Assembly (NCBI RefSeq): GCF_004799325.1 | Contig: NZ_SSMD01000010.1 | Location: 62,001 to 126,000, forward strand | Direction: 5' to 3' | DNA length: 64,000 nt | Source: Thalassobius vesicularis | GTDB taxonomy: Bacteria > Pseudomonadota > Alphaproteobacteria > Rhodobacterales > Rhodobacteraceae | In this document: positions 47,077 to 63,516 of the stretch, piece by piece | How positions within the stretch are numbered: the first letter of the stretch is position 1 | Layout: each line of letters opens with the position of its first letter | The notes under the pieces: generated by a model | What the model was told of the DNA's origin: nothing | What the model saw: only the letters and a program-made list of their open reading frames with translations | Databases searched by the model: none | Made by a program: the position numbers and the translations under genes

Positions 47077-47292
47077 TCATGGGTCGCGGCAATCCCGAGC
47101 CTGCCCTCGCATCACGGCATAGTCGCCTGGCACGTTCGAGATCGCCGTTCCATTTGGCAGCATGCCAGGTTATGCACCGCCCGCGCCTGGAACTCCCGGC
47201 TGTACCCGACAACCGGTGAACATGCTGCAGCGCCGCCGTCCTCAGAACGGACCGTCGCGCAACCGGGCAACAAGCTCGTCGCGCTTACGGGG
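47077..47292 (-). pseudogene. Frameshifted phage Rz/spanin-like remnant
   Basis: Minus-strand translation gives LLPGCATVRSEDGG and PVVGYSREFQARAV. After a frameshift near 47150 it continues with LPNGTAISNVPGDYAVMRGQ, then ARDCRDP and stop (47077-47079). This pattern (lipobox, then VVxYSxEFQxRA, then DYAVMRxQARxC) is what I associate with small lysis-accessory proteins next to endolysins in rhodobacterial prophages. It lies directly downstream of the truncated radical SAM copy, as expected for a phage lysis region. Confidence 0.5.
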
Positions 47293-48433
47293 ACGGCAAT
47301 CTGCCACCTTCCAGCCCAACCACCACCATTCCCGTCAAATGCCAGATCGCCGCCATCATGATCCCCATGTTGAAGGCAAACTCGTTGGCGCAGCTCTGCT
47401 TGAAGAATTCCCCCTCGAGAAACATACAGGATCCCTTGCAGAGCTGAACGACCGGGCATGACATGCATTCCTCTCGGAAAGCAAAGTGTGTCGCGGTGTC
47501 GAGCGCGATGGCGTCAAAGTTGGCAACATGCCCGATCTTGTGCTCGCCCTTCGCGCCAGTGTTCTGACAGGTCATCACGTTCCCGCGCAGGTCGACGGCA
47601 ATGGCATGGGGGCTGTCCATTCCGCATTTTTGGCCGAGGGCCTCGATGGGCCTGCGGCGCTGGATAGCAGCATAGAACTCGTTGATGCGCTCCCCAAGGC
47701 CGAAGGCATTCGGGTCCTCGACCAGCGCCTCGAAGATCGACCGGGTCAGGCTGTTCAGCTCCGCGGGCTCAAACCGTCCCGTTCCGATGGCGGTCGCGGC
47801 GTCATAGACATTCACGACGCCTTCGAGCCCAACGAAGATGTCCGGCCCCACCTTCTCGGCGAACCAGGCCTTGAGCGCTCGCAGGTCGTGATGCTGGCGG
47901 GTCAGCACCGCATTGAAACCTGTCTTTTCGGGGCGCTCGGCCAGCAGGGTTTGGATCCTGTGGCTCTTGTCAGGATCGTCGAACGGATCCGGCCCGCGTA
48001 GATGCTGACCAGGCCCGTCATGTGAGATCGTGATTTCAATGTCGTATTTCGCGATGAAGTCGATCTTTTCACGGGAGAGGAGCGAGCCGTTAGTGACGAT
48101 CGAGAAGCGCGCCGCCGGAAAGCGTTCCGCCAGCGCCGGGATCAACCGCTTGATCTTGGCCCAGTAGAGGAACGGCTCCCCGCCCCATAGCTCGATCTTT
48201 TCTGGGGCGTCGGTGATCCAACTGTCGAGCTGGGTCAGGAAGTGCTCGACATCGGCCAGCTTCGAGACCGTGGCATCGGCGATCTGGAAGGCCTGGCTGC
48301 AATAGCTGCAGGCATAGTTGCACGAGAGCCCAAGCTGGATTTTCAAAACGCGAGGTACGCGAGATTTTCCGATGGGCTTGTCTTTGGCCACGCGCGGCAC
48401 TGGCGCGAATATCCCCGGCTCGACCGGCAGCGG
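47285..48433 (-). pseudogene. Radical SAM/SPASM protein, copy 1, N-terminus lost
   Basis: About 380 residues match copy 2 (57830-59074) with roughly 18 substitutions. The 4Fe-4S SAM motif CNYACSYC and the SPASM Cys set (NVMTCQNTG, CMSCPVVQLCKGSC, KQSCANEF) are intact. The first 28 residues of copy 2 are missing. Homology stops at LPLPVEPG, exactly where the sequence becomes the Walker A codons of the opposite-strand ABC gene. A GTG at 48442 inside the ABC sequence leaves an open 385-codon frame, so a shortened protein might still be made. The C-terminal end also differs from copy 2. Confidence 0.85.
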
Positions 48434-50249
48434 CAAGACCACGACGATGAAAATGATGACGGGGCTTCTGCCGCCAAGCGGGGGCGTGGTGCGGCTCTTC
48501 GGGGCGGAGGTAAATCCGCGTGATCTCGCGACCCGCCGGCGGGTCGGCTACATGTCGCAGAGCTTTTCGCTCTATACCGAACTGACGGTCGAGCAGAACC
48601 TTTCGCTGCACGCGCGGCTCTTCGCCATGCCTGAACCCGAGATCGCGCCGCGGGTCGAGGAGATGCTCGCGCGTTTCGATCTGGCCGAGGTGCGTGACAG
48701 CCTGCCCGAGCGTCTGCCGCTGGGGATGCGCCAGCGTCTGTCGCTCGCCGTCGCGCTGATCCACCGGCCCGAGATGCTGATCCTCGACGAGCCGACATCG
48801 GGCGTCGATCCGGTGGCGCGCGATGCCTTCTGGCGCATCCTGATCGCGCTGTCGCGCGACGAGGGCGTGACGATCTTCATCTCGACCCATTTCATGAACG
48901 AGGCGGAGCGCTGCGACCGGGTCTCGCTGATGCACGAGGGCAAGGTGCTGGCGACCGGCGCCCCGGCGGAGCTTGCGCGCGAGGTCGGGGGCGCGACGCT
49001 GGAAGAGGCCTTCATCCATCATCTGGAGGCGGCGGACGCCGGCGCTGCGGGCCATGCGGCGCCCATGTCCACGGAGGCAGTGCCGCAGGGCCACGGGCGG
49101 GCGCCGCGCGGTTGGCGACGCTGGTTCGACCCCCGCCGGATGGCCAGCCAGGCCCGGCGCGAGGCGCTGGAACTGTGGCGCGACCCGGTCCGGATGACCC
49201 TCGCGATCCTGGGCAGCGCGATCCTGATGTTCGTGATGGGCTATGGCATCAACCTCGATGTCGAGGATCTGACCTTTGCCGTTTACGACCACGACCAGAC
49301 CGCGATCAGCCGCGACTACGCGCTGACCCTGTCCGGCTCGCGCTATTTCATCGAGCGCCCGCCGATCGAAGGCGATGCCGACATGGACCGGCGGATGCGC
49401 GCGGCCGAGATCAGCCTGGCGCTGGAGATCCCGCCGGGTTTCGGGCGCGATGTCGCGCGCGGGCGCCCGGTCGCCATCGGGGCCTGGATCGACGGCGCCA
49501 TGCCCACCCGCGCCGAGACGGTGCAGGGCTATGTGCAGGGCATGCACCTGCACTGGCTGGGCCAGCGCGCCCGCGAGGCGGGCCTCGGCGATGCGCTGGC
49601 CGGGCCGGTCACGGTCGAGACCCGCTTTCGCTACAATCCCGACATGCGCAGCCTCGACGCCATGGTTCCGGCCGTCATTCCGCTTCTGTTGCTTCTCATT
49701 CCCGCGATGCTGAGCTCGCTCAGCGTCGTGCGCGAGAAGGAGCTCGGCTCGATCACCAATTTCTATGTCACGCCGACGACCCGGCTGGAATTCCTGCTGG
49801 GCAAGCAGATCCCCTATGTCGTGCTGTCGATGGGCAGTTTCCTGATGCTGACGGGTCTGGCGGTGACGGTCTTCGGCGTGCCGCTCACCGGCAGCTTTGC
49901 CACCCTGGCGCTGGCGGCGCTGCTCTACGTGACGGCGGCGACGGCCATCGGGCTGGTGTTTTCCGCCTTCACCCGCAGCCAGATCGCCGCGATGTTCGGC
50001 ACGGCGGTGCTGACGATCCTGCCGGCGGTCAGCTTCACCGGGCTGATCGACCCGGTCTCGTCCCTGCAAGGCGCAGGCCGCGCCATCGGCGAGATCTACC
50101 CGACCACCCATTTCCTGACCATCGCCCGCGGCACCTTTTCCAAGGCGCTCGGCTTCGCGGATCTGCGCGGCGCCTTCCTGCCGCTGGCGCTGTCTGTGCC
50201 GGTCCTGATCGCCGCGGCGGTTCTTTTCCTTCGCAAGCAGGAGACCTGA
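48423..50249 (+). pseudogene. RbbA-like ABC exporter (ATPase-permease), 5'-truncated
   Basis: The recognisable part begins at the Walker A motif itself ([14 protein letters not shown]). It then has the Q-loop [14 protein letters not shown], signature [12 protein letters not shown], Walker [14 protein letters not shown] and, after a linker, an ABC-2 permease half with six helices. RbbA/YhiH-type proteins normally have two ATPase domains before this point, and all of that is missing. The open frame extends left to 48318, but those codons are antisense radical SAM sequence. It is followed by an ABC-2 permease gene, so it was an efflux unit before the break. Confidence 0.85.
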
Positions 50250-57177: not shown

Positions 57178-57315
57178 GGGGAGATCGTGCTTCGCGCGCC
57201 GGACCGCCGGCGCGCGAGCAGGAACATGAGCCCGGCGAGAAGGAAGGCTCCGTAGCGCAGCGCCCCCCCACACCCACGGGCTGGCCGTGATCCTGCCTAG
57301 GAGGACGGCAGTCAC
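57178..57315 (-). pseudogene. Broken holin-like small membrane protein of phage lysis region
   Basis: A GTG at 57315 overlaps the M15 stop (GTGA) and begins VLLGRITASPWVWGGAA. In another frame the sequence goes on with LRYGAFLLAGLMFLLARRRSG, a membrane helix with a basic end. The frame change is close to a run of seven C (plus strand). Together this looks like a one-helix phage lysis protein, now frameshifted and cut off. Confidence 0.5.
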
Positions 57316-57833
57316 CGCCGCCCCCGGCGCCAGTCGTCGAGGCGGGCATAGATGGTGACTGCGATGCCACAGAGTGCCACCGCGATGAACACCCAGCGCA
57401 GAGTGTCGAGATACGGCACCAGCGGCAGGATGGCGGATTGCGTCTCGGCCAGGACGCCCTGTGCCACCTCGACGCCCGCCGCGCCCAGCGTCGCCACGCC
57501 CGCCGTGCCACCACCCTTCATCGTGCGGCTGTCGGCCAGCACCTCGCGGGCGGGCGGCGCCTCGGCTGCGAATGCGGTCGCTCGGACCGGGAAACGCTCG
57601 CCCCACTGGCGTGCGGGGCCGAGGTCCACATGGATGAACCCCGAGCGCGGATAGAAGCCGAAGCCGAGGAACCCGACCTCGCGCGCCGCGGCCTCGAAGG
57701 CCACTGGGTCGTGGTTCGCCATGGCGATGTCAAACGCCGCACCCTCCTTATGCTTCAAGCGGATTGAGCCGCCAACGTCACGTTTGTGCTCAGGGCTGCG
57801 ATAAGGGGAGAATCCGCTGGACCAACCAGTCAA
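57312..57833 (-). CDS. Peptidase M15-type phage endolysin with C-terminal membrane helix
   Basis: This 173-residue protein has a D-Ala-D-Ala-carboxypeptidase-like M15 core: YRSPEHKRDVGG, LKHKEGAAFDIAM (Zn His and Asp) and GFIHVDLGPARQW (Zn His). A helix near the C-terminus (WVFIAVALCGIAVTIY) would anchor it. Family members usually have about 50 more residues before YRSPEH, and the start here is a weak TTG overlapping the radical SAM stop. The N-terminus is thus short or damaged. It would cut peptidoglycan peptides for particle release. Confidence 0.72.
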   Translation of the reverse strand: MTGWSSGFSPYRSPEHKRDVGGSIRLKHKEGAAFDIAMANHDPVAFEAAAREVGFLGFGFYPRSGFIHVDLGPARQWGERFPVRATAFAAEAPPAREVLADSRTMKGGGTAGVATLGAAGVEVAQGVLAETQSAILPLVPYLDTLRWVFIAVALCGIAVTIYARLDDWRRGRR

Positions 57834-59074
57834 TGATCAGCAGCGCCGCAACCGGCAATCCCTTCCACCCCAACCACCCTCATCCCCGTCAAATGCCAGA
57901 CCGCCGCCATCATGACCCCCATGTTGAAGGCAAACTCGTTGGCGCAACTCTGCTTGAAGAACTCCCCCTCGAGGAACATGCAGGACCCTTTGCAGAGCTG
58001 AACGACGGGGCATGACATGCATTCGTCCCGGAAGGCAAAATGCGTCGCGGTATCGAGCGCGATGGCGTCAAAGTCGGCAACATGGCCAATCTTGTGCGCC
58101 CCCTTCGCACCGGTGTTTTGACAAGTCATGACGTTCCCGCGCAGGTCGACGGCAATGGCGTCGGGGCTGTCCATCCCGCATTTTTGGCCAAGCGCTTCGA
58201 TGGGCCGCCGACGCTGAATCGAAGAATAGAATTCGTTGATGCGCTCGCCGAGGCCAAAGGCGTTGGGGTCCTCTGCCAGCGCCTCGAAGATCGACCGCGT
58301 CAGGCTGTTCAGTTCGGCAGGCTCGAACCGCCCCGTCCCGATGGCGGTCGCTGCGTCATAGACATTTACGACGCCCTCGAGCCCGACGAAGATGTCCGGC
58401 CCGACTTTTTCGGCGAACCATGCCTTGAGGGCCCGAAGGTCATGATGCTGGCGCGTCAGAACCGCGTTAAACCCGGTCTTTTCGGGGCGCTCGGCCAGCA
58501 GGGTTTGGATCCAGTGGCTCTGGTCAGGATCGTCGAACGGATCCGGCCCGCGCAGATGCTGACCAGGCCCGTCGTGTGAGATCGTGATTTCAATGTCGTA
58601 TTGCGCGATGAAATCCAGCTTTTCGCGGGAGAGGAGCGAGCCGTTCGTGACGATCGAGAAGCGCGCCGCCGGAAAGCGCTCTGCCAGCGCCGGGATCAAC
58701 CGCTTGATCTTGGCCCAGTAAAGGAAGGGTTCACCGCCCCAGAGCTCGATCTTTTCCGGGGCGTCGGTGATCCAACTGTCGAGCTGGGTCAGGAAGTGCT
58801 CGACATCGGCCAGCTTGGAGACCGTGGCATCGGCGATCTGGAAGGCCTGACTGCAGTAGCTGCAGGAATAGTTGCAGGAGAGCCCAAGCTGGATTTTCAA
58901 AACGCGGGGTGCGCGAGATTTTCCGAGGGGCTTGTCCTTGGCCACGCGCGGCACTGGCGCGAAGATGCCAGGTTCGACCGGCAGCGGCAGCCCCTCACAT
59001 TCGGAGGTGTGCGGGTTGTAGCGCACGTGATGGCGGCTGCCGTCACGCGCTTCCAGTGTCAAATCGAACCACAT
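57830..59074 (-). CDS. Radical SAM/SPASM peptide-modifying enzyme, copy 2 (intact)
   Basis: This 414-residue enzyme has an N-terminal about 60-residue leader domain, the SAM 4Fe-4S motif CNYSCSYC (about residues 57-64), GGEPFLY, and a C-terminal SPASM domain with NVMTCQNTG, CMSCPVVQLCKGSC and KQSCANEF. SPASM enzymes modify peptides or proteins, for example by thioether or C-C links or by formylglycine formation. Its start overlaps the stop of the 2OG oxygenase-like gene (TGATG), and a 97-residue Cys-rich protein is two genes upstream. The natural substrate is inferred to be that protein. Confidence 0.9.
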   Translation of the reverse strand: MWFDLTLEARDGSRHHVRYNPHTSECEGLPLPVEPGIFAPVPRVAKDKPLGKSRAPRVLKIQLGLSCNYSCSYCSQAFQIADATVSKLADVEHFLTQLDSWITDAPEKIELWGGEPFLYWAKIKRLIPALAERFPAARFSIVTNGSLLSREKLDFIAQYDIEITISHDGPGQHLRGPDPFDDPDQSHWIQTLLAERPEKTGFNAVLTRQHHDLRALKAWFAEKVGPDIFVGLEGVVNVYDAATAIGTGRFEPAELNSLTRSIFEALAEDPNAFGLGERINEFYSSIQRRRPIEALGQKCGMDSPDAIAVDLRGNVMTCQNTGAKGAHKIGHVADFDAIALDTATHFAFRDECMSCPVVQLCKGSCMFLEGEFFKQSCANEFAFNMGVMMAAVWHLTGMRVVGVEGIAGCGAADH

Positions 59075-59706
59075 CAGTCGAACAGCCTTTCCTCGATTGC
59101 CACGGGGAGATTGACGCGAAAGTTCGCGACGACCTGCACATGCGGCGCGCTCCCCTCATAGGGGTGCTGGTTATGGGGGATATGAGAGGGGAAGAAGACC
59201 GAGAGACCCGGCCGCGGGTTGACCGCAAAGCCATGCCGCGCTTCGAAGGGCAGTCGTCCCTCGTCGAAGTAGCGCGATGGGTCCTCGATCACGAAGCGAG
59301 GGGTCCCCACGCTGTTCACCGCCTGTCCTGTCCCACTGCCAGTCAGGAAGTGGACGCAGGTCAGGTCGCCTTCGCGGCTGTCCTTGTGGGTCGAGATGAA
59401 GCCGCCGGGCTCGATGACGAGGGCGCGGTTTTCGCAATGATCGGAGTCAAGATATTGAGCCCAGGGGCCGAGGACGGCACGCGCGCAGGCGAAGAGATGG
59501 ACTTTCAGGGTCGGACCTGCAGCGCTTTTCTCAAGTATGCCGCGCACACGTCGCTTTGCTGCATTGGCCATCGACCCGCTGCCGGTTGCTTCGACGGCGG
59601 CGATGGCCTCGTCGGCCAGTTGCCTGTTTACCACCCAGTCGACTGGCGTCTCGAAGAACGTGACCCGCGTCGGCCAAAGGTCGATACTCGTGCTGCGGAT
59701 CTCCAT
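59074..59706 (-). CDS. 2OG-Fe(II) oxygenase-like protein, prolyl-hydroxylase type
   Basis: This 210-residue protein has the iron motif HxD in ISTHKDSREGD and a distal His region FPSHIPHNQHPYEG followed by an Arg in VANFRVNL, as in 2OG-Fe(II) dioxygenases of the prolyl 4-hydroxylase group. Such enzymes hydroxylate protein side chains with 2-oxoglutarate and O2. Start is ATG 59706 (GTG 59715 also possible), right after the stop of the Cys-rich protein. It is coupled to the radical SAM gene. Confidence 0.72.
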   Translation of the reverse strand: MEIRSTSIDLWPTRVTFFETPVDWVVNRQLADEAIAAVEATGSGSMANAAKRRVRGILEKSAAGPTLKVHLFACARAVLGPWAQYLDSDHCENRALVIEPGGFISTHKDSREGDLTCVHFLTGSGTGQAVNSVGTPRFVIEDPSRYFDEGRLPFEARHGFAVNPRPGLSVFFPSHIPHNQHPYEGSAPHVQVVANFRVNLPVAIEERLFD

Positions 59707-59708
59707 CG

Positions 59709-60002
59709 TCAGCACCGGCAGTTGCAGTTGCAGTTGAAGAATTGGCGGTTCCCTGTGATGGTGACCGCGCCGGTGCTACCGCCGCCCGAGAGTGAGCCGA
59801 CATAGCAGTTTGACGTGCAGGCACCGCCCCCGCAGGTTTGCCAAAGAAGCTGGCCAAGGCTTTGCCCTGATGTGGGCGTTGTATTGCTGACAGATACGGA
59901 GCTGATGTCGCCCGTGCCGATCGCGGGTTTGTTGGCAATGCGCGACCAGTCTACATTTCCGCTGTCGTCGATCACAATAGTGGTTCCGACCTTATAGGCC
60001 AT
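59709..60002 (-). CDS. 97-residue Cys-rich tail-tip-like protein, candidate modification substrate
   Basis: This small protein has two parts. Residues 1-55 (MAYKVGTTIVIDDSG, then VDWSRIANKPAIG) resemble the head-proximal part of phage tail fibres; W..I.NKP is a common fibre motif. Residues 56-97 are rich in Gly, Ser, Thr and Cys: CGGGACTSNC (Cys57, 62, 66) and an end NCNCNCRC (Cys91, 93, 95, 97). AAGGAGG lies 5 bases before the ATG; it overlaps the upstream oxygenase gene by 11 bp. Position next to a radical SAM/SPASM enzyme and two oxygenase-like proteins suggests a precursor modified after translation. I know no described family with this tail. Confidence 0.8.
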   Translation of the reverse strand: MAYKVGTTIVIDDSGNVDWSRIANKPAIGTGDISSVSVSNTTPTSGQSLGQLLWQTCGGGACTSNCYVGSLSGGGSTGAVTITGNRQFFNCNCNCRC

Positions 60003-60735
60003 GGGTGCCTCCTTGCGCCTGATGGGCCAGGATTTCTTTGAGCCCGGCCTTGCAGTGGGAATTCGGGAGTTCGAGTGAACAGAGGACCGGAATGCACATC
60101 CGCTCCTCGCCCTCGAAGTAGGTGCTGTCGTGGGGCACATGGCCCTCGAAGACGAGCATGGAGCCCGTGCGCGGCTCGACCGCATACCAGCCGCCGACAT
60201 AGGTGTCAGGATTGTTGCAGGGCCAGAGCCGTTTGCCGACATTGGCCGGATCGTAGAACCGCACCGCCCCACGATGGAGCGAGGTCTTGGGACAATCGGC
60301 GTCGAGCACGACCCGCGGGTAATAAGTGCATACGATGTCGGTTTGGATATGGGTGTGGGCGTTGATCCCGACGTTTTCTCGGGCGGCCCGCCGCTGCCAG
60401 AAGGTGTCCGACATCATCCGGATATCGCCGCTGTGGTCATAGCCATAGGCGAGCTGCAGATATTCCCTCACCCCGGCGGCAACCATCTGCGCCAGAACCG
60501 CAATCGCCGGGTCGCGCTGGGCCATCAGAAAGTTGTGACGCAGATGGCCGAGATGGTTGGTATCATCTCCGACATTGCGGAGGTCGCCGGCATCCTGAAT
60601 GCGGTTTGCGATCGCGTCCGCGGCCGCCAACGCGTGCAAACGGTTATTGAAGCCGTCGGGCATTTCCCAGTGCTTATGCATGACGAAGGCCGGGTAGATC
60701 AGCTGGAACTCGGTCGTGGTGGCAATTTCCATCAC
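59992..60735 (-). CDS. 2OG-Fe(II) oxygenase-like protein, 2OG-FeII_Oxy_5 type
   Basis: This 247-residue protein shows HTHIQTDIVCTYYP, a jelly-roll strand with the first iron His. It continues with MLVFEGHVPHDSTYFEGEER, the distal His and following Arg, and then VLCSLEL. The layout resembles putative 2OG-Fe(II) oxygenases found in phages and cyanophages. Its C-terminal region is similar in pattern to the oxygenase at 59074. Its start overlaps the unknown gene's stop (ATGA). Substrate unknown; the fibre proteins or the Cys-rich protein are likely. Confidence 0.65.
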   Translation of the reverse strand: MMEIATTTEFQLIYPAFVMHKHWEMPDGFNNRLHALAAADAIANRIQDAGDLRNVGDDTNHLGHLRHNFLMAQRDPAIAVLAQMVAAGVREYLQLAYGYDHSGDIRMMSDTFWQRRAARENVGINAHTHIQTDIVCTYYPRVVLDADCPKTSLHRGAVRFYDPANVGKRLWPCNNPDTYVGGWYAVEPRTGSMLVFEGHVPHDSTYFEGEERMCIPVLCSLELPNSHCKAGLKEILAHQAQGGTHGL

Positions 60736-61637
60736 ACGACCTCCAGGATGATCTTGCCGATCGCGGTATAATGCTCGGTGTTGATCTTGACCGCGATCTG
60801 GTCGCCCGGGCTGAGCCCCAGCGCCTCGACGGGAAAGCTGCCCGCTCCATTTATGTCCGTCACCAGCCGCCGTTTCGGCAGATAGCCGGCGTCGCTCTCG
60901 AGCTTCAGTGCCAGTTCATGGGCACAAGGCGAGCCATCCCTGTTCCAGCGCAGCGCGATCGGCACATGAGACCGCCCTCCCGCGGGCAGGATCACCGTCT
61001 CGGTCGCCACCGCGTGGAAATAGAACTGCTTGAACCACTGACCGTCATTCGGGATCGTTGCGTCATCAATCCGGCCCGCGACGGTGGTGCCGTTCAGCAG
61101 GATCGGTTCCTGATTGCAGAGGATCTCGATCCGGGCCGAAGATAGTGGCCCCTTGATTGGCATGAAGATAACCAGGGCGTTTGCAGCCTGTGTGCGCGCA
61201 CGATGGCGAAACGACAGGTCGACCTTCTCGCGCGCAGATTGGGCGAAGCGGTTGCGCCAAGGCTGTGGAAACCCCGCATTGTCGGTCATGATGTCGATCA
61301 GTGCGTGATCGGTGATTTCATCATGACCGCGCATCCCGTCTGGGAAAACGTAGGAGCGCCCCTTGTAGATCCCGCCATGCGGGCAGCCCGGCAGGTCCGG
61401 AACGAAGATCCCGTTGCCGCGCAGATCGACGAAACCCGCGCCATCGGCATAATCATATGGTGTCGCGAGGTCTGCCGCGAGGGTGGCCCAACTCATGACC
61501 CCGACGCCGTCTCGGACCCCCTCGCCGGCATCGCAGGGAGCAAATACCGCGATCCCCGCATAACTCTCTTGCACATCGACGGCGTAATGCAGCCGCGAGC
61601 CCGTATTGTATATCACATGCAGTCCGGTCTCGATCAC
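60732..61637 (-). CDS. Phage-region protein of unknown function
   Basis: This 301-residue protein starts [20 protein letters not shown] and has no domain I recognise. It appears to be mainly beta-structured: repeated short hydrophobic strands, and a C-terminal [20 protein letters not shown] that resembles carbohydrate-binding or receptor-binding domains. It overlaps both neighbours by ATGA. From position between fibre genes and oxygenase genes it may be a tail-tip or receptor-binding protein. Confidence 0.6.
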
Positions 61638-62530
61638 GGCGCGGTCCTTTTCAGCTGGTCGACCTGCTTAGCTAGGTCTTTGATGGCCTCGACGAGGAGG
61701 CCCACGAGATTGCCGTAGGCCAGACGCAGCACGCCCTCGGCCTCGACCACGGCCTCCGGCGCGACGGCCTGCACCTCTTGTGCGATGAGGCCCATCTGCC
61801 GCGCGTCACTGCCCGCCATGGTGAATGTGACGCCGTTGATCGCTCGCACCTTGGCCAGCGCATCCACGATGGTCTCGATGTCAGATTTGAGTCGCACATC
61901 TGAAGACGAGACGAAGTTCGGTGCTGTCACCGTGCCAGAGAAAGTCGCTCCGCTGAGAAGGGCGAAAGCGCTGGCATGGCTGCCATCGAGCAGATCGGCG
62001 TCAATTCCCGACCCAGACCCATCCACCGTCACCAGTTTGGCACGCACCTGTGCTGCGGTGTCTGGGGAGCCGTCTGCTCCTGCGGGGCCTTGTGGACCCG
62101 TAGGCCCGGTGGCACCCGTGGGACCCGCAGGTCCCTGGGGTCCTGTCGGGCCGGTGGCGCCAGTATCACCCTTGGCTCCCGTCGCACCTGTTGCCCCGGT
62201 GGCACCTTTCAGGTTGACGTAAGCCCCCCAAGCGGACCCGTTGTAAAATCGCAGGCTGGTGCCGGACCATTGATGCGCTGGTGTCGGTCCTGTGGCGCCC
62301 GTTGGACCCTGAGGACCTGTTGGCCCGGTCACGCCCTGAGGACCAGCCGGTCCTGCGGGTCCTTGCGGTCCAGTTTGTCCGAGCTCGATCACGGTTTCGG
62401 CGCCAGAGACACGCTTCAGGAACAGCTTGCCGTCGGGGACATTTACCGCCAACTCACCAGCAGCGAGTTGCGCCGCTGTCGGCACCCGGCCTGCAACGGT
62501 GGTGCGCTTTACCAATACGGTGTTTGCCAT
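61634..62530 (-). CDS. Collagen-like tail fibre with S74 intramolecular chaperone
   Basis: This 298-residue fibre has an N-terminal attachment part (1-50, [18 protein letters not shown]), a collagen-like Gly-X-Y block (51-83), a short globular part (84-108), a second Gly-X-Y block (109-153), and a C-terminal S74 domain (about 208-298). The S74 motif [12 protein letters not shown] contains the self-cleavage Ser. [15 protein letters not shown] and the final coiled coil are typical. The chaperone trimerises the fibre and is then cut off. Pro is in the X position of most repeats. Confidence 0.88.
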
Positions 62531-62532
62531 GA

Positions 62533-63516
62533 TCAGAAGGTCCCACCATCGAGAGTGATGCCGTTGATTGCGCCACCCGTGATCGCGACGGCATTTGCGT
62601 TTTGCGTAGCCATGGACCCCAGCCCAAGGTTTGAGCGCGCTGTCGTCTTGTTCGGCAGGTCAGAGAGGTTCGAGGCCGCGGCGAGTTTGCTCGCCAGCGC
62701 ATTGGTGACCGTGGTCGCGAAGTTCGGGTCATCTCCCAGAGCTGCGGCTAGCTCGTTCAGCGTGTCCATGGCACCGGGCGCGGCATCAATGAGCGCCCCG
62801 ATTGCCGCAGCGACAAAAGCGGTTGTGGCGATCTGGGTGGTGTTAGTGCCGGCAGTTGCAGTGGGGGCCGTCGGTGTCCCGCTGAGCGCAGGTGAGGCCA
62901 GCGGCGCTTTTGCATCCAGCGCTGCCTGAAGGCTCGTGACCTGCGCGATCGAATGGCTGTGGCTGGAGGGCGTAAAGCTCGTAGGCTTGCCGGTGATCCC
63001 GGCCCAGGGAGCGGCATCAGCAACTTCCGCGGCATCCACCTTGCCATCATTGTCGGTGTCATAGGTGGATTTTGCCATGTCGCCGGCGCCAAAGCCGGCA
63101 ATGGCCTGATTGACGAAGGCCGTCGTTGCAATCTGCGTCGAGTCCGTGCCCGCGACCGCCGTCGGCGCCGTGGGCGATCCTGTGAAGGTGGGTGACGCCA
63201 AGGGCGCTTTGGCTGATAGCAGACTGTCGACCTGCGACTTGCGGACAAGGTCGGTCCCGCCGCTGGCATCTTGGCTAGACTTCGGAGCGGTCGAGAATGT
63301 TTTCGCCCCACTTACAGTCTGCGTGCCCACCAGCGCCAGAAAGCCGCCCGACCCTGCAACGGGGACGATGGAGGTTGCATTGCCGCTGCCGTCGTCGCCC
63401 TTGCCGACATAGACCGTGTTGTCGACTTCGTTATGCGCCAGTTCGCCGGACTTAAGCGCTGCAGGAGCACCTGCCACGCCCGAAACACGGCGTTTGAGCT
63501 GGATCGTATTGGCCAT
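62533..63516 (-). CDS. Phage tail fibre protein with EF-hand-like loop
   Basis: This 327-residue protein starts [16 protein letters not shown], like the next fibre, so both probably attach to the same tail site. Two copies of a fibre repeat ([20 protein letters not shown] and [20 protein letters not shown]) are each followed by [10 protein letters not shown]. Between them lies [13 protein letters not shown], a complete 12-residue EF-hand loop (residues 153-164). The C-terminus has [17 protein letters not shown], typical of phage fibres. It begins in overlap with the stop of the collagen-like gene. Confidence 0.88.

Follow-up and report, generated by a model that had tools for sequence, protein, structure and literature searches.

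A Cys run at the tip of phage tail fibres is linked to a radical SAM/SPASM gene and is probably the substrate of the encoded enzyme

The tail operon and its Cys-tailed protein

We analysed a stretch of 64,000 nucleotides from Thalassobius vesicularis (contig NZ_SSMD01000010.1, positions 62,001 to 126,000; hereafter the window), with focus on a tail operon in which a radical S-adenosylmethionine (SAM)/SPASM enzyme is encoded close to a 97-residue fibre-type protein that ends in a run of alternating cysteines (Cys). The right end of the window is a prophage. Further upstream, past the window edge, the prophage genes gave matches to families of tape measure, distal tail, hub (central fibre J type) and S74 fibre proteins, indicating a siphovirus-like tail module. 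The operon occupies positions 57312-62530 on the minus strand and thus runs leftward, with a fibre gene preceding it. The gene order is fibre, collagen/S74 fibre, p301, 2-oxoglutarate (2OG) oxygenase-like protein A, the Cys protein, 2OG-like protein B, the radical SAM enzyme and an M15-type peptidase (Table 1). From 62530 downwards, every gene shares 1 to 11 nt with its neighbour; the overlap is 11 nt between 2OG-like A and the Cys protein, 7 nt between the Cys protein and 2OG-like B, and 1 nt between 2OG-like B and the radical SAM gene. A preliminary description of this DNA had listed four overlapping leftward genes, and all four open reading frames (ORFs) were found at their place on the minus strand; it had overlooked p301, between the collagen/S74 fibre and 2OG-like A, and the downstream M15-type peptidase.

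The Cys protein has seven Cys within its last 41 residues and ends in NCNCNCRC, as had been described before. Its ATG is preceded, at a distance of 5 nt, by the ribosome-site sequence AAGGAGG. The protein consists of a fibre-like anchor (MAYKVGTT...VDWSRIANKPAIG), a variable middle and a conserved tip, FNCNCNCRC. No Pfam hit was obtained for the window protein itself, and tblastn against named phages found nothing. Homologues were detected in 28 loci, 22 of them on contigs that also belong to the forward set described below, and the Cys tip stood at the end of the protein in all 26 uncut ones. The radical SAM gene was present in 23 of the 28 loci; the other five have at most 893 nt of sequence left. 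The 31 distinct window-type proteins compared all come from a single group of Rhodobacterales-type phages. In them, the share held by a position's most frequent residue averaged 0.83 in the anchor (residues 1-38), fell to 0.48 in the middle (39-66), and was 0.68 over residues 67-88 and 0.92 over the final eight. The middle was wholly replaced in five proteins (L007, L010, L012, L025, L026; L numbers denote the loci compared). A constant anchor and a constant tip around a variable middle would be expected of a protein that contacts a receptor and has an end recognised by an enzyme.

Table 1. Features of the tail operon and the preceding fibre gene (window coordinates)
Feature	Position	Strand	Evidence
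Tail fibre protein	62533-63516	-	phrog_2631 1e-49
Collagen-repeat fibre with C-terminal Peptidase_S74 intramolecular chaperone, without Cys run	61634-62530	-	PF13884 3.1e-15, PF01391 2.8e-13
p301, 301-aa structural-type protein, family not named in any library	60732-61637	-	Conserved C-terminal segment
2OG-Fe(II) oxygenase-like protein A, HTH...H motif	59992-60735	-	Related to PF13759, phrog_81 and TIGR02466; under Pfam and NCBIfam cut-offs
97-aa fibre-type Cys protein, proposed substrate	59709-60002	-	ORF; alignment of homologues
(Asn-Cys)n tip, FNCNCNCRC then stop	59709-59738	-	Most conserved segment of the Cys protein
2OG-Fe(II) oxygenase-like protein B, HKD...H motif	59074-59715	-	Related to PF13759 and phrog_81; under Pfam cut-off
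Radical SAM/SPASM enzyme, 414 aa	57830-59074	-	phrog_1802, PF04055, TIGR04085; conservation in 40 relatives
M15-type peptidase, last operon gene	57312-57833	-	PF08291 1.4e-13; phrog_17373

Linkage of the Cys run to the radical SAM gene

In the forward direction, viral contigs were scanned with the radical SAM protein and species genomes with an alignment of its family, and the loci of the best 80 of 153 viral-contig relatives and the best 80 of 115 species-genome relatives were compared. A locus was scored positive when a same-strand ORF of at least 45 aa, at most 6.5 kb upstream or 3 kb downstream, contained at least three alternating Cys (CxCxC) that were either within 25 residues of the C terminus or followed by one of two domain motifs. 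Upstream room of at least 3 kb was available in 61 viral loci; 58 of these had such an ORF, as compared to 3 when the same rule was applied to the opposite strand. Regardless of room, the count was 67 of 80. Genome loci with at least 3 kb upstream gave 54 of 67, and 5 of 67 on the opposite strand. Both isolated phages with a full-length relative of the enzyme carried a Cys run (2/2). With the enzymes collapsed at 80% identity, a run was found with 57 of 70 representatives, or with 55 of 70 without L030 and L032, two loci that the rule missed and that were counted positive by eye only here and in the radical SAM tree. These two, with Cys-rich runs and a Hint-type domain, and L052 were the viral misses with room. 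There were 13 genome misses: L211 and L222, which are partial radical SAM proteins entered as misses, L216-L220 and L223 (one clade, as far as placed on the tree), L258 and L269 (another clade), L226, L279 and L280. The run of L031 sits in low-complexity sequence and may be an artefact. Internal runs left aside by the C-terminal rule were few (1/61 viral loci, the Hint case L032 judged by eye; 3/67 genome loci).

In the reverse direction, viral contigs were scanned for DNA encoding CNCNCNC, ignoring the enzyme. The search gave at least 120 stretches; among those listed, 3 were loci of the forward set and 117 were new. Of these new loci listed, 57 carry CNCNCNC in frame near the C terminus of an ORF of at least 50 aa. 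A radical SAM gene followed downstream on the same strand in 34 of the 37 C-terminal ORFs listed with at least 3 kb downstream (30 of 33 with identical tails counted once; one of the 37, L125, is on a contig also in the forward set), and in 7 of the 20 with less room. The three misses were L180, a 50-aa fragment at a contig end, and L183 and L186, which are probably spurious ORFs. Among the remaining 60 loci listed, mostly out of frame, the gene was found in one, L103, which has a Cys-rich phage protein of different architecture. Similarly, the pattern CDCNCDC gave 79 loci, with the enzyme beside 8 of 9 C-terminal ORFs (the ninth has 107 nt downstream) and in 4 of the 70 other loci. The Cys-Trp control CWCWCWC (at least 120 stretches) had it beside none of the 18 C-terminal ORFs listed and in one of the 102 others listed; the counts for these last two patterns take in loci of any downstream room. 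A chance Cys-rich ORF was ruled out by the forward, reverse and control counts. The small protein had been proposed to be fibre-like, which is supported. A lack of conserved gene linkage in other genomes had been named as a refutation; the link of the Cys tail to the radical SAM gene was kept across many phages in both directions of search.

The 179 runs found correspond to 131 distinct ones (a few perhaps from spurious ORFs), each with 3-10 Cys. The residue alternating with Cys was Asn in 298, Ala in 90, Asp in 52 and Arg in 28 of 509 positions, and the residue ahead of the run was Asn in 104 of 131. The run forms the exact protein end in 49 of 131 and lies at most nine residues from the end in 107, a share that is partly by construction because the C-terminal rule itself selected 85 of the 131. 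Outside the CxC runs, 512 of 31103 residues were Cys. The run is carried by unrelated proteins, 55 to 726 aa long with a median of 204, among them mini-proteins, MAVPSSG-type proteins and long fibres of 300-700 aa. The L067 carrier combines a T7-type tail fibre N terminus (PF03906, 1.4e-20) with collagen repeats (5.1e-24), and the L245 and L144 carriers are also collagen proteins. The L108 carrier matches the fibre of Achromobacter phage JWF over most of its length (3e-23); its matches to T4-type long tail fibre subunits are weak (1e-4 to 3e-4). As the fibre bodies differ and the run is the one common feature found, the enzyme probably recognises the run. The idea that the system is special to mini-proteins was dropped, as the same kind of run caps the fibres of 300-700 aa.

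In 12 loci a Hint-type domain directly follows the run (L030, L032, L033, L068, L075, L082, L083, L237, L255, L261, L266, L267), with the assignment in L266 and L267 judged by sequence alone. Peptidase_S74 directly follows it in L323, L333 and L342; L323, the one scanned, scored 22.5 bits against a cut-off of 22. Hint and Peptidase_S74 domains cleave at their own start, and the Cys run would therefore be at or beside the mature C terminus. The Hint label is scattered on the radical SAM tree, with at least six changes forced by well-supported branches, and the Hint-less L108 fibre is homologous to the Hint-bearing JWF fibre; we read this pattern as repeated convergence on an exposed C-terminal run. 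In six L070-type loci the run precedes another conserved domain, for which a Pfam scan of two proteins gave no match. The viral contigs L070-L081 have a Cys-rich segment and, behind it, a conserved domain with SKI-C-KLY...ADQxYG....

Mini-proteins of 57-79 aa with HTHxFYDDY followed by CNCNCNC or CDCNCDCNC near the end were seen in L095, L104, L171, L331, L350 and L351, and four of these loci (L095, L171, L331, L351) hold two to four more distant radical SAM-type ORFs. Altogether, more than one radical SAM-type ORF was present in 16 of the loci examined. No match to the enzyme was found among plasmids at E ≤ 1e-20.

The radical SAM enzyme and its accessory proteins

The window enzyme matched phrog_1802 at 7.7e-55 and passed the cut-offs of both Radical_SAM PF04055 (39.2 bits, cut-off 29.5) and SPASM TIGR04085 (31.2 bits, cut-off 27), in agreement with the earlier radical SAM/SPASM call. 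In an alignment of 40 relatives, C67 and C71 of the radical SAM motif C67-x3-C71-x2-C74 were invariant and C74 was conserved in at least 90%. All seven Cys of the SPASM signature C299-x13-G313-x4-C318...C352-x2-C355-x5-C361-x3-C365...C377 were likewise invariant, and beyond these iron-sulfur cluster ligands no invariant Cys remained in the 40. The sequence SHDGPGQxxRGPDP is a hallmark of the family. The nearest curated families are peptide and protein maturases, and all 40 members reached E ≤ 1e-5 with the maturase models for PapB ranthipeptide, nif11 peptide, quinohemoprotein amine dehydrogenase and anaerobic sulfatase. The window enzyme stayed under every named equivalog cut-off for maturases of ribosomally synthesised and post-translationally modified peptides (RiPPs), the best being the PapB model NF047865 with 66.7 bits against 340; it scored 34.5 bits with TIGR03942 and 46.3 bits with TIGR03906 (cut-off 453). 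Its matches in the PDB were 8vpo (4.4e-21), an anaerobic sulfatase maturase (3.2e-17), 5wgg (2.3e-15) and YydG (9.4e-8, 34.8 bits). The best of these aligned only from its own residue 97, and about 50 N-terminal residues of the family stayed unmatched. According to the accessible part of PMC12710340, 8vpo is among the structures validating RiPP recognition-element models. Taken together, the curated and PDB matches favour a peptide-maturase-like chemistry on Cys, with a thioether as the leading choice.

Of the 57 non-redundant representative systems, 41 had a relative of p301 and 28 had 2OG genes; as these counts cover the sequence stretch of each locus, some absences may reflect truncation. 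No p301 relative occurred in any of the 60 loci that the reverse search listed without a C-terminal run. The p301 proteins share a conserved C-terminal motif, GYLPxxR...ALGLxxGDxxxVKxG. We rejected p301 as a known domain, since it has no Pfam family, a single PHROG hit (0.0039, from one of 25 members) and no PDB hit. We regard p301 as a new structural family and the third recurrent component of the system.

The two window proteins flanking the Cys protein had been called oxygenase-like. This held at the level of the family: PF13759 matched 24 of 28 aligned members, both window proteins included, at E ≤ 0.001, and the first His of HxH/HxD and the distal His of the metal triad (H127, H202) were invariant in the 28, with HTH in A and HKD in B. 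The window proteins themselves scored 24.1 and 16.8 bits, below the cut-off of 27. Because 2OG genes occur in just 28 of 57 systems they look accessory, and the proposal that all three enzymes modify the Cys protein was not supported as it stood. Locus L035 holds two p301 paralogues, three 2OG-like genes and two radical SAM-type ORFs, a layout that suggests stepwise growth of the module. The M15-type peptidase is not conserved with the system (matches in 4 of 200 loci compared).

A second copy of the radical SAM gene lies at window positions 47285-48442 on the minus strand, 90.6% identical at the DNA level over 1129 nt and without the first 28 residues. An ABC-transporter-like ORF of the opposite strand overlaps its beginning, which suggests that the copy is what remains of a second related prophage. 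No second copy of the Cys protein was found in the genome.

Proposed mechanism, alternatives and relation to known systems

We propose that the C-terminal (Cys-X)n run of a tail fibre or fibre-like protein is the substrate of the adjacent, dedicated radical SAM/SPASM enzyme, which would turn it into a thioether-stapled, rigid tip; as a whole, this reading is probably correct. Its parts differ in strength. The linkage of the run to the enzyme and its position at the tip of the fibre are well supported. That the run is modified we infer strongly and hold to be very likely. A thioether as the bond formed is somewhat less assured than an even balance would be, and contact of the tip with a receptor stands at just such a balance. 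The enzyme would act in the host cytoplasm during virion assembly, joining the Cys sulfurs to carbons of neighbouring Asn, Asp or Ala. A flexible run would thereby become a stapled tip placed where the fibres touch the host. In about half of the systems the 2OG oxygenases probably hydroxylate the same tip, and p301 probably caps or seats it.

Several observations weigh against this proposal. The linkage counts come from the best-scoring relatives in the forward scans and from at least 120 CNCNCNC stretches, counted as listed, in the reverse one, and the conservation pattern of the MAYK proteins comes from a single phage group. Two small radical SAM clades (L216-L220 with L223; L258 with L269) have no Cys run, as is the case for L052, L226, L279 and L280, and family membership alone is therefore no proof of a Cys-run substrate. 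No phage genes were noticed by eye around the enzymes of the run-less clades inspected, where no family search was run. Ala, which is no obvious thioether acceptor, takes 18% of the X positions. Of the ten Hint-type proteins scanned with Pfam, three were above the cut-off (L083, L082, L033), six were weak and L068 had no hit. Finally, the PDB relatives include an anaerobic sulfatase maturase, so that formylglycine chemistry is compatible with the homology.

The run-less clades comprise Ramlibacter/Variovorax with a gammaproteobacterial metagenome-assembled genome (MAG), and Sulfuritalea/Sulfuricella. L258 and L269 share an upstream ORF that is ABC-transporter-like by eye, and we noticed no small candidate substrate gene common to the neighbourhoods of these sister enzymes.

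With formylglycine chemistry the enzyme would oxidise the tip Cys as anaerobic sulfatase-maturating enzymes do, giving a multi-aldehyde tip that reacts with host-surface amines. Besides the sulfatase-maturating enzyme being the second-best PDB match (3.2e-17), TIGR03942 was matched by all 40 family members at E ≤ 1e-5 and the JWF enzyme is annotated as a sulfatase maturase. We consider this unlikely, since the sulfatase motif, CxPxR, is impossible inside an alternating Cys run, 8vpo matches better (4.4e-21) and the PapB model beats TIGR03942 on the window enzyme (66.7 vs 34.5 bits). Epimerisation of alternate residues into a D/L beta-helix, as in proteusins, would suit an alternation of one residue type, and 2OG-type hydroxylases do accompany proteusin clusters. 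It was set aside as very improbable: YydG, the one solved relative known to us as a peptide epimerase, matches only weakly (9.4e-8, 34.8 bits), and the invariant Cys are all iron-sulfur ligands, with none left to donate hydrogen.

A metal-binding needle is slightly less unlikely than a formylglycine tip. In such a needle three chains with inward Cys would bind Fe, Zn or Fe-S, comparable to the His-x-His sites of T4 gp37, and the radical enzyme would modify another protein or tune the ligands. The strict i, i+2 spacing would set the Cys on one strand face, and the available part of PMC11705849 describes HxH iron-binding tips for T4 gp37 and proposes them for marine phages. The window tip has Cys-x-Cys and not His-x-His metal sites. 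Moreover, a linked radical enzyme would be superfluous for plain metal binding, although the linkage here is close to obligatory, and in that part of PMC11705849 no such enzyme partner is named for HxH fibres; HxH phages were not searched for one. The last alternative concerns the 2OG oxygenases, which might hydroxylate the adjacent collagen-like fibre, their nearness to the Cys protein being incidental. A collagen-repeat fibre is indeed encoded in the same operon. Among 57 representatives, however, collagen-type ORFs were present in 4 of 28 loci with and 7 of 29 loci without 2OG genes (Fisher p = 0.50), and this explanation was set aside as rather improbable, if the least so of the four. The association of 2OG genes with Asn-rich runs, 21 of 27 vs 14 of 28, is marginal (p = 0.0496, uncorrected).

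Rather more tentatively than for the stapled fibre tip itself, we suggest a widespread, undescribed virion maturation: a polycyclic, thioether-knotted (Asn-Cys)n tip, often hydroxylated, with the run made the mature C terminus repeatedly (by a plain stop, Hint or S74). It may bind metal and engage metal- or siderophore-uptake receptors, as a Cys counterpart of the His-x-His 'Ferrojan' fibres.

The idea that the system is special to Rhodobacterales proved wrong, as Cys runs are found in contigs of many assigned hosts. Record titles name Thalassobacter, Thalassovita, Marivita, Nereida, Limnohabitans, Bradyrhizobium and Magnetospirillum; further labels are MAGs of Verrucomicrobia, Planctomycetaceae and Bacteroidetes, although MAG contigs may be misbinned. 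Few genomes of the window's bacterial family carry the system: 3 of 198 at E ≤ 1e-40, one of them being that of the window.

Among the best curated matches of the enzyme family are maturases of Cys-rich RiPPs, namely PapB ranthipeptide NF047865, SCIFF TIGR03974, CcpM TIGR04068, CefB 'Cys-every-fifth' NF038107 and TIGR04463. As in those systems, SPASM is above the cut-off and the gene stands beside a substrate with regularly spaced Cys. In contrast to them, the window enzyme is far under the equivalog cut-offs and the proposed substrate is a virion-type fibre, where theirs is a free peptide. The Cys run sits at the C terminus, in some systems with a self-processing domain behind it, and no export gene was seen in the window operon. 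The small partner beside the enzyme is RiPP-like in the window (97 aa), but the Cys-run partners in 57 of 70 loci have 55-726 aa. The quinohemoprotein amine dehydrogenase maturase (TIGR03906) makes Cys thioethers, few in number, on an enzyme subunit. Like the window enzyme it is a radical SAM/SPASM protein, and 40 of 40 members of the family match its model at E ≤ 1e-5; it differs in having an enzyme subunit as its substrate, and the window enzyme reaches 46.3 bits with a cut-off of 453.

We are not aware of any report of a radical SAM maturase acting on a viral structural protein. No description of Cys-run fibre tips with a radical SAM enzyme was found in the open-access full-text literature (subscription papers and preprints are outside this scope), nor was the system mentioned in the accessible parts of PMC3556154, PMC10783043 and PMC9959647, and this virus-particle maturation system is apparently undescribed. 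It resembles the T4 gp37 tip, for which the available part of PMC11705849 reports His-x-His iron sites and the Trojan Horse idea, in having ligand-type residues at i, i+2 spacing at the fibre end, where the receptor is met; it differs by Cys in place of His and by a dedicated radical enzyme. Phage radical SAM genes are also described in the parts seen of two further papers, in or near host-recognition regions as cassettes of pelagimyophage host-recognition clusters (PMC7029224), and as 11-12 proteins, termed highly unusual and many of them unexplained, in Campylobacter phages such as CP220 (PMC2853527). Unlike in our system, no Cys-run substrate is named in those parts, and membership of these enzymes in the window family is not established.

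If correct, the proposed stapling of fibre tips would be a new kind of post-translational chemistry for virions, located at the part that meets the host, and it would offer a function for phage radical SAM genes whose role is left open in the parts seen of PMC2853527 and PMC7029224. The run would then be a portable C-terminal substrate tag, seemingly accepted by the enzyme on unrelated proteins. The system is present in isolated phages (Achromobacter phages JWF and 2-1) and in prophages of marine bacteria, with three copies (L208-L210) in Thalassobacter stenotrophicus CECT 5294, and is thus directly testable. The unexplained radical SAM genes of Campylobacter phages may have Cys-repeat proteins as substrates too.

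Additionally, some Cys-repeat proteins were observed in Campylobacter phage CP220. Its gp140 (L283:30933-32537) is a protein of 534 aa with six CDCNYCT-type heptad repeats, encoded 2.2 kb upstream of a radical SAM gene, gp136 (L283:34743-35912). By eye, gp032 and gp166 contain CxN/CxD repeats with a period of three, gp166 lying 0.8 kb upstream of the radical SAM gene gp163.

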